Below, one piece after another: positions 3,353 through 61,658 of a DNA stretch of 64,000 nt. A model generated the notes under the pieces. That model was not told the DNA's origin. It worked only from the letters and a program-made list of their open reading frames with translations, and ran no database searches. The DNA comes from Bacteroidota bacterium (GTDB lineage: Bacteria; Bacteroidota; Bacteroidia; Bacteroidales; UBA7960): positions 1 to 64,000 of the forward strand of contig JAGXRQ010000019.1 in NCBI GenBank assembly GCA_018335675.1. Reading direction: 5' to 3'. The position numbers and the translations under genes are program-made. Within the stretch, counting starts at the first letter, position 1, and each line of letters opens with the position of its first letter.

Positions 3353-3429
3353 GGTGTTAGGTGTTAGGTGTTAGGTGTTAGGTGTTAGGTGTTAGGTGTT
3401 AGGTGTCAAGTATCAGGTATCAGGTGTCA
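3353..3429 (+). repeat. Tandem heptamers, GGTGTTA type (11 units)
   Basis: There are seven perfect GGTGTTA units at 3353-3401, then GGTGTCA, AGTATCA, GGTATCA and GGTGTCA up to 3429. The period is exactly 7 bases. It starts right after the DUF1573 stop codon. Confidence 0.97.
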
Positions 3430-3444
3430 GGATTTCAAGATTCA

Positions 3445-3514
3445 GAAACCCGAAACCCGAAACCCGAAACCCGAAACCCGAAACCCGAAACCCGAAACCC
3501 GAAACCCAAAACCC
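3445..3514. repeat. Tandem heptamers, AAACCCG type (10 units)
   Basis: Ten CCC runs recur every 7 bases (3449, 3456 and so on to 3512) as GAAACCC, with the last units drifting to AAAACCC. On the minus strand this is GGGTTTC repeated, which is telomere-like and a candidate G-quadruplex. It ends 14 bases before the start codon of the M24 peptidase. Confidence 0.97.
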
Positions 3515-3528
3515 AAAACCTATTACCT

Positions 3529-5005: not shown

Positions 5006-5105
5006 GGTGTTAGGTGTCAGGTATCAGGTATCGGGTATCGGGTATCGGGTATCGGGAATTGGGTGTCGGTGTTGGGTGTCGGTGTTGGGTATCGGATGTC
5101 AGGTT
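5006..5105 (+). repeat. Tandem heptamers, GGTRTYR type, with a G-quadruplex candidate
   Basis: Units are GGTGTTA, GGTGTCA, GGTATCA, four GGTATCG, GGAATTG, then mixed 6- and 7-base units to about 5105. GGG runs at 5033, 5040, 5047, 5054 and 5061 have 4-base loops, which is a canonical G3 quadruplex pattern. The tract reaches the 3' end of the minus-strand four-helix-bundle gene. Confidence 0.95.
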
Positions 5106-5568: not shown

Positions 5569-5629
5569 CAACACCCAACACCCAACACCTAATACCTGAC
5601 ACCTAATACCTGACACCTAATACCTAACA
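5569..5629 (-). repeat. Tandem heptamers on the other side of the four-helix-bundle gene
   Basis: Read on the minus strand the units are GGTATTA, GGTGTCA, GGTATTA, GGTGTCA, GGTATTA and three GGTGTTG. It is the same unit family as 5006-5105 but inverted, so the G-rich strands of both tracts run outwards from the repeats into the gene between them. The unit order differs from the left tract. Confidence 0.95.
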
Positions 5630-29163: not shown

Positions 29164-29207
29164 GGCATTAACCATTAACCATTAACCATTAACAATTAAC
29201 CATTACC
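29164..29207. repeat. Tandem heptamers, ACCATTA type (about 6 units)
   Basis: CATTA-AC units recur every 7 bases between the convergent genes ispF and lptB. On the minus strand the unit is GGTTAAT, which has the GG-NN start but not the T-Y-R end of the main family. Confidence 0.9.
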
Positions 29208-47116: not shown

Positions 47117-47222
47117 TTGGGGTATCGGGTGTAAGGTGTAAGGTGTAAGGTGTAAGGTATAAGGTATAAGGTATAAGGGTATAAGGGTATAAGGTATAAG
47201 TATAAGGTATAAGGGTATTTGG
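47117..47222 (+). repeat. Tandem heptamers, GGTGTAA/GGTATAA type, inside the efflux operon
   Basis: Units of GGTGTAA (four) then GGTATAA (several), with some GGGTATAA octamers, fill this stretch. It begins 19 bases after the tolC-like stop codon and is G-rich on the coding strand. Confidence 0.95.
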
Positions 47223-47234
47223 TATGCCGTCGTC

Positions 47235-51400: not shown

Positions 51401-51500
51401 GTCTCCGCTTGGTGTTACAATCATTGGCGGGATGTTTGTCTCAACAATGATTACTCTGATATTAATTCCTGTTATTTATTCTTATTTCAATAAGGATTAA
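48429..51500 (+). CDS. RND-family efflux permease (AcrB/MdtBC-type)
   Basis: The 1023-residue protein has the twelve-helix RND topology with two large periplasmic loops. The N-terminal helix is followed by MLPRDVLPDIEMPVLTVVT. The proton-relay helix 4 reads IALGMVIDNAIVVFENISKH, which has Asp-Asn where AcrB has Asp-Asp. Helix 10-11 reads LGIIMLLGIVVNNGIVIVDY. A KPFI-like FESIKNPFIIIFTIPLS segment precedes it. It should export hydrophobic compounds by proton antiport. The stop overlaps the end of the minus-strand yggS gene by 4 bases. Confidence 0.95.
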   Translation: MKLPTLGVQHPVMTIMLFLGLFLFGALAYQMLPRDVLPDIEMPVLTVVTIYPGASAGDVEQQVTKVLETTLAGISNLTSITSQSKENVSFISLQFDWGSDLDEKANAARDMLEFGQRYLPAEAQKPILMRINSDLFPVVIYGINADESYNDLGRIVDQDISNALRRADGVGALLILGKIKKQLQVELDPFKLKAYNLSAAQVLAALKTENVSIPAGNMVVGFDDLAVTVPGEFLSIDDLENTPISSLTGTTIYLKDIATIKPGIRDKHEVARLDGLPGIGIFVQKQAGANTLEVVNAVRKQLEIIKPNLPADVTIEELMDNSELVVFTLRNLNNTIFYVAIFVIIVVIFFLRKLRSSLIIILTIPFSLIVAFIFMYISGYSVNIFSLMSLAIALGMVIDNAIVVFENISKHIEKGVPPKQAALFGTREMGGAITAATLTTIAVFFPLLFLDGIVGIMFRQLAVITAITLLASLFTALTLTPMLSSIMIKQSVVSNKSNKFYNYSEKIFIKLEDIYYSSLKAALNNRLLTVIISLVIFGSSLLLTRLIGTDYIPDFDAGDLSAVVETRIGASTEETLKLTDKIENIFRDEVHEIKSLYSLTGQSEDGILSSVGFREGKNVTTVFARIVQPEERTRTSAEIAEVLRARIAELPEVEDYVVSGGSLLSAAVLGNIRPIELKIIGTDIDELNRLAILVQDSMLATGVFANIQSTVDRGKPELRIDIDRKKASLLGLNTAMLSLQLRQSLYGASAGTMKVNNEDVQIWVRYDRKFASSPEDIENVMLLTLNGMQVPLRMVANINDGRGVLEIRRENQQRVVYIKAEPKDVSLGGATEVLKNLINNIDVPETITTEFGGQVSEQSQSFRSLYIMFVIGLVLVFMVMASQFESIKNPFIIIFTIPLSITGVIIAFYITGLTLSAVTFLGIIMLLGIVVNNGIVIVDYTNLLRSRGLKVREAIVDAGRSRLRPVLMTSFTTMLGMLPMAVSRGVGSEIWSPLGVTIIGGMFVSTMITLILIPVIYSYFNKD

Positions 51501-52153
51501 TGTCTTTCTCCAAAAATGGCTGTTCCTATTCTTACCATTGTTGAGCCTTCTTCAATGGCAATCTTATAATCATCTGTCATGCCTATTGATAGCTCCTTGA
51601 AAATAAGACTGTCTTTAAAGAATTTCTGCTTTATCGATTGGAATGTATTATAAAGACCCGCAAACTCTTTCCTGACTTGATTATGATCGTCGGTAAATGT
51701 TGCCATGCCCATTAGTCCGCATATTCTGGCGTTTTTCAAAGTTTTGAATTCAGGGTCATTAAGTAAACTTTCCAATTCCATTATATCCATCCCAAACTTA
51801 GTCTCTTCTTCTGCTATATGCATTTGCAAAAGACAATCAATAGTCCTGTTGTTTTTTAATGCTTGTTTATTAATTTCTTTAAGAAGTTTCAGGCTGTCAA
51901 CTGAATGAATCATCGAAACAAATGGAGCAATATATTTTACTTTGTTTGTTTGTAAATGACCAACTAAGTGCCAATGAATGTCTTTTGGAAGGTCGTTGAA
52001 TTTCGGGACCAGCTCTTGAACTTTATTTTCTCCAAAAAGCCTGTGTCCGCAGTTGTAAACCTCCATTATCTCTGCTTCTGTCTTCGTTTTGCTTATAACG
52101 ATGAGTTTAAGCGCAGCAGGAATGTTGTCGAAGATTGTTTTGAAGTTGTTCAT
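51497..52153 (-). CDS. YggS-family pyridoxal phosphate homeostasis protein
   Basis: The true start is the ATG at 52153, because the longer frame from 52279 runs through the TCCTGAG heptamers (TQDLGLRTQDLGLG). From there the 218-residue protein is a fold-type III PLP-binding protein without known catalytic activity, which keeps PLP levels balanced. The PLP Lys is Lys22 in LIVISKTKT. The family blocks FGENKVQELVPKF, WHLVGHLQTNKVKYI, IHSVDSLKLL and LSIGMTDDYKIAIEEGSTMVRIGTAIFG are all present (separate motifs). The heptamer array begins only about 10 bases upstream of the start codon, leaving little room for a promoter. Confidence 0.95.
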   Translation of the reverse strand: MNNFKTIFDNIPAALKLIVISKTKTEAEIMEVYNCGHRLFGENKVQELVPKFNDLPKDIHWHLVGHLQTNKVKYIAPFVSMIHSVDSLKLLKEINKQALKNNRTIDCLLQMHIAEEETKFGMDIMELESLLNDPEFKTLKNARICGLMGMATFTDDHNQVRKEFAGLYNTFQSIKQKFFKDSLIFKELSIGMTDDYKIAIEEGSTMVRIGTAIFGERH

Positions 52154-52162
52154 GGTTTTAAG

Positions 52163-52218
52163 TCCTGAGTCCTGAGTCCCAAGTCCCAAGTCCTGAGTCC
52201 TGAGTCCTAAGTCCTGAG
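52163..52218 (-). repeat. Heptamer array, arm 1 of a large inverted repeat (8 units)
   Basis: Eight 7-base units made of TCCTGAG (a), TCCCAAG (b) and TCCTAAG (c) occur in the order a a b b a a c a. The last five units (52184-52218) are repeated exactly, as reverse complement, at 52371-52405. Confidence 0.98.
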
Positions 52219-52266
52219 TTTTGTTTATAATGTATATTTGTGTCTTCAGCAAAGTTACAAAGAATT

Positions 52267-52325
52267 TCAATCTCCACAATCAGAACAATCCATACAATCT
52301 TGACAATCTTGACAATCTTGGCAAT
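52267..52325. repeat. Tandem nonamers, ACAATCTTG type
   Basis: Units ACAATCAGA, ACAATCCAT, three ACAATCTTG and GCAATCTCA recur every 9 bases. They lie in the loop between the two heptamer arms. Confidence 0.92.
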
Positions 52326-52335
52326 CTCATCGATT

Positions 52336-52357
52336 CCCTAGAAGGGGGAACTGCAAA
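52336..52357 (+). repeat. CCCCCTAAAGGGGG-type dispersed element, degenerate copy
   Basis: CCCTAGAAGGGGGAACTGC resembles the better copy at 59809-59838 and continues with the same GCAAA flank. Confidence 0.7.
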
Positions 52358-52370
52358 AATTTATACTCGA

Positions 52371-52443
52371 CTCAGGACTTAGGACTCAGGACTCAGGACT
52401 TGGGACTTAGGACTTAGGACTCAGGACTTGGGACTCAGGACTT
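52371..52443 (+). repeat. Heptamer array, arm 2 of the inverted repeat (10 units)
   Basis: Units CTCAGGA, CTTAGGA and CTTGGGA continue for ten repeats. Read on the minus strand the order is a b a c c b a a c a, using the code of arm 1. The first 35 bases (52371-52405) match arm 1 perfectly, and the first 56 with two mismatches. Confidence 0.98.
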
Positions 52444-52468: not shown

Positions 52469-52867
52469 CTAATTCTTCTTCCCCTTCTGCCTCTGTTTTA
52501 GCATACAAGCACATTCGCCACTTAGTCTTTCGTTGATGTTGTGAATAAATGGCATTCCGCCTTTTTCCCATTCAACAAAACCTCCTCCAAGAATGAAAAT
52601 CTTTGAAAAGCCTTTTCTCAACATTATTACACTGGCATCTCTACAATTTATTCCTGTTGAATCGGCAATAATATATGTGTCTTCTTTTGAAAGATCAGAT
52701 AGTTTTTCTTCTAATTCCTCGAAAGGCACATTGATGTTTTTGGCAACATCAAAATACTTATATGCATGAAGGTATTCGTCACGAATATCAAGCATTATTG
52801 CTCCTTTTTCGCACAACGATAAAGCCTCTTTTGGGGTGAGACTTTGTATTTTTGGTTTATTATCCAT
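52469..52867 (-). CDS. Rhodanese-like domain protein
   Basis: The 132-residue protein is a single rhodanese domain with the active Cys at about residue 75 (TGINCRDAS). It has the preceding IMLDIRDEYLHAYKYF and following GGGFVEWEKGGMPF blocks. Rhodanese domains carry a persulfide on Cys and act in sulfur transfer or thiol redox chemistry. The tail is Lys-rich with a CACM pair (SGECACMLKQRQKGKK), which may bind metal. It is the last gene of the thiol/metalloid operon, 12 bases after the permease. Confidence 0.9.
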   Translation of the reverse strand: MDNKPKIQSLTPKEALSLCEKGAIMLDIRDEYLHAYKYFDVAKNINVPFEELEEKLSDLSKEDTYIIADSTGINCRDASVIMLRKGFSKIFILGGGFVEWEKGGMPFIHNINERLSGECACMLKQRQKGKKN

Positions 52868-59838: not shown

Positions 59839-59865
59839 AACATTTGTGCAATCTCACACCCCTCA

Positions 59866-59900
59866 CCTCAAACCTCAAACCTCAAACCTCAAACCTCAAA
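59866..59900. repeat. Tandem heptamers, CCTCAAA type (5 units)
   Basis: Five perfect CCTCAAA units. On the minus strand the unit is GGTTTGA, one base from the GG-NN-T-Y-R formula. Octamers of the CACATTGG type follow at 59942-59985. Confidence 0.95.
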
Positions 59901-60032
59901 CCCAATACTACTCTATTACCAGCAACATAGTTCATAATATCCACATTAACACATTGGCATATTTGCACATTGGCACATTTTCTTCAATCTTAAAAATCTT
60001 AAAACATTTTTCGAAAAATTATCTCATATCAT

Positions 60033-60044: not shown

Positions 60045-61574
60045 ATGCATGAGATGATATTAATTTTAGATTTCGGCTCTCAATATACTCAATTGATTGC
60101 CAGACGTGTAAGGGAACTCAACGTGTATTGTGAGATACATCCTTACCATTATAAACCTTCGAACTTCGACAATATTAAAGGTGTTATTCTTTCGGGTAGC
60201 CCTTTTAGTACCAGAGAAAAAGACTCTCCAAGACCTGATCTTTCGGGCATTGTTGGGAAAATTCCTTTGCTTGGTGTATGCTATGGTGCTCAGCTACTTG
60301 CGCTTGAAAATGGTGGCGATGTTGAAGCTTCTGCTACTAGAGAATACGGTAGGGCAAACCTTTGTTTTGTCGATTCAAAGGAAGATCTTCTTGTCGGAGT
60401 TTCTCAAAACTCTCAGGTATGGATGTCGCACGGCGATACTATTACAAAGTTGCCCGCTTCTTACAAAAAGATTGCAAGCACCGCCGATGTCGATATTGCT
60501 GCTTTTCGCGCTAATGGAGATAATGTTTATGGATTGCAATTTCATCCGGAAGTGTACCATTCTACAGACGGTTTTATTTTATTGAGAAATTTTATTGTCG
60601 ATATCTGTGGTTGCGAACAAAGCTGGACTCCTGAATCATTTATTGAAAGCACCGTTGAAAATCTTAAGCAAAAGATCGGAAATGATAAGGTTGTTTTAGG
60701 TTTGTCGGGTGGCGTCGATTCAAGTGTAGCGGCTGTTTTGTTGCATAAAGCTATTGGAACTCAACTGCATTGTATTTTTGTGGATAATGGCTTGTTGAGA
60801 AAAAATGAATTTGAATCTGTACTGGATTCTTATCTGCATATGGGATTGAATGTAAAAGGAGTGAGGGCTGCAGATAATTTTTATAACGCTTTAAAAGGTT
60901 TGACAGACCCCGAGCTGAAAAGAAAAGCTATAGGGAAAGCTTTTATAGAGGTGTTCGATGAAGAAGCTCATAAAATTCAGGATGTTGTTTGGCTTGCTCA
61001 AGGAACTATTTATCCTGATGTTATTGAGTCTGTTTCTGTTAAAGGCCCCTCTGCTACTATCAAATCTCATCATAATGTTGGCGGATTGCCTGATTTTATG
61101 AAGCTTAAAATAGTTGAACCTCTAAGTAGTTTATTCAAAGACGAGGTTAGAAGGGTAGGAAGTGCTCTGCATATTAGCGATCACTTGCTAAAGCGTCATC
61201 CATTTCCCGGTCCAGGACTAGGAATTAGAATTCTGGGAGATATTACTCCTGATAAAGTTAGAATTCTTCAGGACGTGGATGATATTTTTATAAAAGGATT
61301 GCGTGATAGTGGCTTGTATGATAAGGTTTGGCAAGCTGCTGCAATATTGTTGCCGGTGCAGTCAGTCGGTGTTATGGGCGATGAAAGAACATACGAAAAT
61401 GCAGTATGCTTAAGAGCTGTGACCTCAACCGATGGAATGACAGCAGATTGGTCGCATTTGCCATACGAATTTTTGGCAAAAGTTTCAAATGATATAATAA
61501 ATAAGGTAAAAGGCGTTAATAGAGTAGTATATGATATAAGTTCTAAACCGCCGGCAACGATAGAGTGGGAGTAG
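60045..61574 (+). CDS. guaA: GMP synthase (glutamine-hydrolysing)
   Basis: GuaA aminates XMP to GMP using glutamine. The 509-residue protein has the class I glutaminase domain (about 4-190) with the nucleophile Cys in [17 protein letters not shown] and His-Glu in [10 protein letters not shown]. The ATP pyrophosphatase P-loop [18 protein letters not shown] lies near 211-228. The dimerisation domain ends with KPPATIEWE. The start [16 protein letters not shown] matches the family register from the first ATG at 60045. The second ATG at 60054 is also possible. The -7 promoter element ends four bases upstream, so translation is probably leaderless. Confidence 0.98.
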
Positions 61575-61658
61575 GTGTCAGGTGTCAGGTGTCAGGTATA
61601 AGGTATAAGGTATAAGGTAAGATTCTTCCCGATACCTGATACCTGATACCCGATACCC
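61574..61658. repeat. Two opposed heptamer tracts after guaA
   Basis: Three GGTGTCA-type and three GGTATAA units (61574-61618) are followed by GATACCT, GATACCT, GATACCC, GATACCC (61631-61658). The second block is the reverse complement type (GGTATCA/GGTATCG), so the pair can fold into a hairpin. Confidence 0.95.

Follow-up and report, generated by a model that had tools for sequence, protein, structure and literature searches.

The intergenic locus described here is a variant of the polar, paired heptamer arrays of the Xanthomonas/Nostoc type that lacks regular G-tracts. It lies within a 64,000-nucleotide stretch of Bacteroidota DNA (the window) and carries two mirrored arms whose unit orders match on the loop side. 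The best explanation, to which we assign a probability of about 0.6, is that the arms arose as separate polar arrays and that their unit order was then matched by template switching.

Under this explanation, the locus would hold two distinct arrays of one polar class of heptamer repeats, one at each edge of the same intergenic region. In each array the 5′ head would adjoin a gene and the tail would point to the center of the region, and two arrays that share a spacer would consequently form an inverted repeat. With complementary arms in place, the replicating DNA polymerase may switch from one template arm to the other, and a switch of this kind would transfer the unit order of the template arm to its partner, beginning at the loop side.

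Architecture of the mirrored arms

Heptamer units in the arms were coded as a (TCCTGAG), b (TCCCAAG) and c (TCCTAAG). The features of the locus, in window coordinates, are:

51497..52153, minus strand: ORF at the head of arm 1, which we take to be yggS, of the pyridoxal-phosphate homeostasis protein family
52163..52218, plus strand: arm 1, eight TCCYRAG heptamers in the order a a b b a a c a
52181..52219, plus strand: left half of a 39-bp perfect inverted repeat, delimited by base-by-base extension
52220..52369: spacer between the arms, 150 bp, a mosaic of other repeats
52250..52280, minus strand: candidate yggS promoter, ATTG-N19-TAACTTTG, picked by eye and presumably of the Bacteroidota type
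52285..52327, minus strand: nonamers repeated in tandem within the spacer, reading GATTGTNNN on this strand (TRF rows 52285-52326 and 52294-52327)
52332..52369, plus strand: degenerate copy of a dispersed element in the spacer, recognized by sequence match to other loci
52370..52408, minus strand: right-hand counterpart of 52181..52219 in the 39-bp repeat, delimited in the same way
52371..52440, minus strand: arm 2, ten heptamers, read on this strand as a b a c c b a a c a
52469..52867, minus strand: ORF at the head of arm 2, presumably rhodanese-like

Arm 1 runs antisense to yggS, with its head 9 bp upstream of the start codon of that gene. Arm 2 runs in the sense direction of the rhodanese-like ORF, and its head follows the stop codon of that ORF at a distance of 28 bp. 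A sequence-only reading of the window had reported the unit orders of both arms with their coordinates, a perfect 35-base inverted repeat (52184-52218 and 52371-52405) and an identity of 54 of 56 bases over eight units. The unit orders and coordinates are exact, and the 54/56 identity was reproduced. The two 35-base segments are exact reverse complements, and the match continues for one more base toward the loop and three more outward, to a total of 39 bp. An inverted-repeat search returned arms of 60 nt with 97% complementarity. The shared sequence ends with the arrays, as no match between arm 1 and arm 2 was found beyond the array ends.

Parts of the spacer recur at other loci. The dispersed element also follows array tails at the unlinked C99 (88%, query 5-69) and C69 (83%) loci. 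The spacer nonamers at 52281-52327 approximate GATTGT followed by three variable bases, and similar 9-mers are found after array tails elsewhere in the genome.

Polarity and pairing of heptamer arrays

Period 7 dominates the tandem repeats of a 364-kb sample, where lag 7 has 16 runs and every other lag between 2 and 13 has 0–3 (14 and 21 being multiples of 7). Triple TCCYRAG units account for 105 matches in the 3.36-Mb genome to which the window belongs, which is 98% complete. The AGTCNNN pattern (three spacers) is present in 10 of 29 genomes, this one included with 196 matches, and GGTRTNR units are present in 5 of 29, with 244 matches in this genome. The heptamer unit of the window arrays was found in many phyla, in at least 115 stretches.

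Polarity was scored against flanking ORFs, with the head taken as the end of an array that is 5′ on the strand reading TCC or GGT. Gene calls were mechanical ORFs, of at least 100 aa for the polarity and pair counts and shorter elsewhere, and the arrays of the window's own genome were sampled from ~0.55 of 3.36 Mb, mostly regions with a pattern or BLAST match. Among the scorable cases of 58 AGTC-type arrays in this genome, the head is nearer the gene edge in 43 and the tail in 7 (p=2e-7); for 37 GGTRTNR-type arrays, the corresponding counts are 30 and 5 (p=2e-5). Three of the 58 AGTC-type arrays and one of the 37 GGT-type arrays lie inside an ORF. Saprospiraceae loci show the head nearer the gene edge in 36 cases versus the tail in 3. 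No polarity was found in 67 non-Saprospiraceae arrays, taken from 80 of the at least 115 stretches: the head is nearer in 22 and the tail in 21, which rules out polarity as a universal rule.

Array heads lie within 30 bp of a gene 3′ end in 32 of 58 AGTC-type and 19 of 37 GGT-type arrays, versus 7 and 1 for tails. Part of the AGTC-type excess reflects stop codons supplied by the array itself, because 13 heads and 7 tails remain (p=0.26) once the count is limited to 3′ ends 0–30 bp beyond the array. Under this limit, GGT-type arrays retain 16 heads versus 1 tail (p=0.00027). Genes at array heads are mostly not truncated. Pfam coverage of ten ORFs at heads is mostly complete to, or nearly to, the domain end, as in a Fis-type HTH (4-42/42), an amidase (1-445/445) and a carboxyl transferase (2-491/493); ThiF (6-200/238) and TAL_FSA (1-238/285) stop short of the profile end.

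All 16 opposite-strand neighbor pairs within 400 bp in the own-genome sample are head-out, 11 of them within the same repeat family and 5 between different families. Some regions of the third sampling batch were picked for opposite-strand neighbors visible among the matches listed, and with this batch set aside, 10 of 10 pairs are head-out. Given the polarity and this 16/16 count, two facing arrays in one spacer are expected to look inverted. The inverted arrangement is therefore no sign of inverted duplication, since it is the default in this genome, and the polarity of the arrays removes the main reason for which the sequence-only reading had proposed such an event.

The window contains a second head-out pair at 61574-61657, in which GGTGTCA/GGTATAA units face GGTATCG/GGTATCA units across 14 bp and the unit order is unmatched. 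Heptamer arrays with other units are located at 3353-3431, 3445-3520, 5020-5095, 5570-5629, 29166-29205, 47128-47225, 59865-59902 and 61573-61658 of the window, and their units include GGTGTTA, GAAACCC, GGTATCG, CATTAAC, GGTATAA and ACCTCAA, among others. A conserved core with a variable 3-nt spacer was considered as a general rule for heptamer units and found weak: phase variance is 0.034, against 0.026 after shuffling, and 66 of 114 arrays exceed the mean for shuffles.

Shared unit order and its explanations

The strongest alternative, though in our view an unlikely one, is chance. Two independent polar arrays would have grown by separate slippage from a few unit variants, and their shared order would be a coincidence picked out by eye. 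The sequence-only reading held that matching unit order cannot come from separate slippage, a statement that proves too strong: chance yields such a match in 0.8–6% of draws with the composition of the arms, and more often with the unit grammar of the genome. These values come from 60,000 draws per model, with units permuted within arms, drawn independently from local composition (iid) or generated by a genome Markov model. Five matching loop-side units have a probability of 0.008, 0.011 and 0.045 under the three models, respectively. For at most two mismatches in 56 bases over eight units, the probability is 0.021 (permuted) and 0.16 (Markov) in the loop-side register, and 0.06 (permuted, 6.3%) and 0.33 (Markov) in any register. 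Coincidence also gains from unlinked arrays that are equally close over eight units, with C22b and C86 differing by one base and arm 2 and C132 by two. Shared unit words show no genome-wide excess, with 14 pairs observed versus 16.3 expected for five-unit words, and most other head-out pairs are unmatched.

Other comparisons argue against coincidence. At least five tail-end units are shared by 2 of 91 pairs of arrays with five or more units, namely the window pair and one pair composed entirely of a units; the analysis as a whole used 31 coded arrays, in which a few odd units (e.g., TCCCTAG, TCCTTAG) and the C6 and C74 arrays are left out. Because only one of the 90 other pairs matches as far as the window pair, and does so trivially, the window arms are probably not independent. 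The five units shared by the window arms lie in register at the loop side and include the rare b unit, found in 5 of the 58 AGTC-type arrays when both window arms are counted. The match between the window arms is real and probably more than chance, yet not overwhelming, and a common origin of the arms or copying between them is, on balance, favored over chance. Templating is not routine in this genome, since the other ten same-family head-out pairs of the own-genome sample share 2, 1 or 0 loop-side units, compared with 5 in the window pair.

Related composite elements in Saprospiraceae bear on the preferred explanation of separate arrays matched by template switching. These elements, carried by Saprospiraceae MAGs and named here after the MAG SAP1, possess (AGTCNNN)n arms on either side of a 68–71 bp palindromic core, with heads at gene ends. 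They are found at L133, L151, L184, L187, L192, L193, L195, L199 and other loci, and in the SAP1 MAG (G039), where 145 and 146 arm tails correspond to ~145 elements in one genome. In the stretches (at least 115, from many phyla) that carry the heptamer unit, opposite-strand pairs within 300 bp are head-out in 23 of 23 cases among the matches listed, and none is head-in. Like the window locus, SAP1 has head-out AGTC-type heptamer arms with tails pointing inward and heads at gene ends. It differs in its fixed core of ~70 bp and in usually having four units per arm, whereas the spacer of the window locus is 150 bp of unrelated repeats.

Across 49 distinct SAP1 elements among the matches listed, the two arms of an element have 94 loop-proximal units in common in total, compared with 33.5 when partners are shuffled (2000 shuffles, maximum 59). 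Identity of the core stem is 0.88 within elements and 0.69 between elements. This within-element matching is what template switching between inverted repeats would be expected to produce, and common descent of subfamilies could account for part of it. Of 20 rare unit variants, 7 occur in both arms and 13 in one, so that SAP1 arms may copy each other yet mutate apart, or subfamilies may contribute. From the loop-side match in the window and, by analogy, from these elements, we infer that template-switch copying may have acted on the window arms. According to the sections of PMC8604942 and PMC8794818 considered here, template switching homogenizes the arms of inverted repeats and inverts their spacers. 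The same sections present this quasipalindrome correction, which predicts arms turning identical together with spacer inversion, for coding DNA of S. cerevisiae and for RNA genes rather than for paired heptamer arrays.

The sequence-only reading had named inverted duplication or templated copying of an array as the source of the second arm. Copying stands as plausible in light of the SAP1 comparison; duplication fares poorly given the uniform head-out arrangement and the unshared flanks. It appears improbable that one event produced the second arm by copying the first. Such an event would account for the near identity over eight units and the 39-bp perfect match, but the sequence flanking the arms is not duplicated and their orientation obeys the general head-out rule. 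In addition, the tail flank of arm 2 is common to the unlinked C99 and C69 arrays, as would be the case for an ordinary member of a dispersed class.

The candidate promoter at 52250-52280, judged by eye from its sequence, would place arm 1 in the 5′ leader of yggS, whose transcripts would then carry arm 1 alone, without the hairpin. For RNA reading through from the rhodanese gene, the predicted hairpin (-155.6 kcal/mol, z -13.6) ends ~10 nt 5′ of the yggS start codon, and insulation of yggS from this read-through would be a possible side effect of the predicted structure. An Rfam search of the locus returned no family above threshold, the sub-threshold matches being to eukaryotic hairpin models only. 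Stem mismatches of SAP1 elements in tandem-gene contexts comprise 37 G-U and 31 A-C, showing no sign of a G-U preference, which argues against RNA-pairing selection alone. Maintenance of complementary arms for an RNA or cruciform function, such as a terminator or insulator between rhodanese and yggS, is very improbable: it would suit the stability of the predicted fold and the recurrence of head-out pairs at gene ends, whereas most head-out pairs in this genome share little or no unit order, some of them across families, SAP1 stems lack a G-U bias and Rfam offers no family above threshold.

Known repeat systems and relatives

STRR sequences are degenerate heptamers of heterocystous cyanobacteria, and we take the window arrays to resemble them. 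Polar heptamer arrays of the Xanthomonas and Nostoc type, with GGGAATC or GGGGA(C/T)T units, are described in the sections of Rehm et al. (2015, PMC4692102) considered here as genome-wide and mostly intergenic. They lie less than 50 bp from an ORF, on the sense strand downstream or the antisense strand upstream, and form convergent inverted pairs, 70 in Xcc and 75 in Xac. These arrays prefer four units, a preference that the authors link to G-quadruplexes (PMC4692102).

As far as these sections describe the Xanthomonas/Nostoc type, the window arrays share its 7-base tandem unit at many intergenic loci. Arrays of the window's genome likewise lie near ORFs, sense downstream or antisense upstream, and their inverted pairs are convergent (head-out) in all 16 cases. 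Against the same description, the window units lack regular G-tracts: b alone contains GGG/CCC and occurs twice per arm, so a canonical four-tract G-quadruplex within one arm is impossible. The arms also have eight and ten units rather than four, and several unit families in this genome obey one polarity. SAP1 arms show the four-unit preference described for the Rehm arrays without G-tracts, with exactly four units in 33 of 49 left arms and 34 of 49 right arms; common descent could explain it. The same polarity and pairing in arrays without G-tracts, mostly of four units in SAP1, suggests that the quadruplex does not account for polar arrays in general.

Intergenic TAACTGA arrays near gene edges are reported from Beggiatoaceae, Cyanobacteria and Bacteroidetes in the part of MacGregor (2015, PMC4679880) drawn on here, and their indels between close strains come in 7-nt steps. 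They resemble the window arrays as intergenic heptamer arrays near gene edges, Bacteroidetes included. As described there, they differ in their unit and in lying mostly upstream of start codons, with only one indirect repeat reported in that genome. A search of open-library literature gave no record of the TCCYRAG-type unit or the SAP1 element.

The exact TCCYRAG unit pattern is absent from all 38 relatives searched, one of them of the same genus. Among 24 genomes searched, with the window's own in both counts, yggS was found in 23 and rhodanese in 17. Inspection by eye of the sequence upstream of yggS at 22 other loci (23 relatives) showed no arrays and no rhodanese-yggS neighborhood, and no one-armed ancestor was found among these upstream regions.

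Links to mobile elements were also considered. A RAYT/REPIN link was rejected, as all four Y1_Tnp loci in the window's genome lack the arrays searched for in flanks of up to 1.5 kb and both Y1_Tnp loci in SAP1 lack the core element; no transposase link was found for SAP1. Origin from a telomerase-like reverse transcriptase was likewise rejected, the sole RVT_1 match in the 98% complete genome resembling, by eye, a diversity-generating retroelement enzyme. The reverse transcriptase ORF at L256 1237-2685 (G000:C18) is accompanied upstream by an Asn-rich stretch resembling the template region of a diversity-generating retroelement, and a TCCTGAG array lies ~1.8 kb from this ORF.

It is possible, if doubtful, that polar heptamer arrays form a sequence-independent class, in which units differ while the same head-at-gene rule holds within one genome, and whose members come to lie head-out in pairs and are then perfected by template switching between them during replication. 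Intergenic hairpins would in this way arise and persist without RNA selection or G-quadruplexes, with SAP1 as the fully developed form and the window locus as a less regular one. Paired arrays, with their units as natural barcodes, would offer many replicate loci for measuring arm-to-arm copying by polymerases in genomes rather than in reporter genes.

Four IMG/VR viral contigs carry AGTCCTRA arrays, in five stretches (L247-L251). A 19-unit array at L025 2963-3095 lies within an ORF of 399 aa in a stop-free antisense orientation and, judged by eye, is apparently translated as a linker following a membrane segment.
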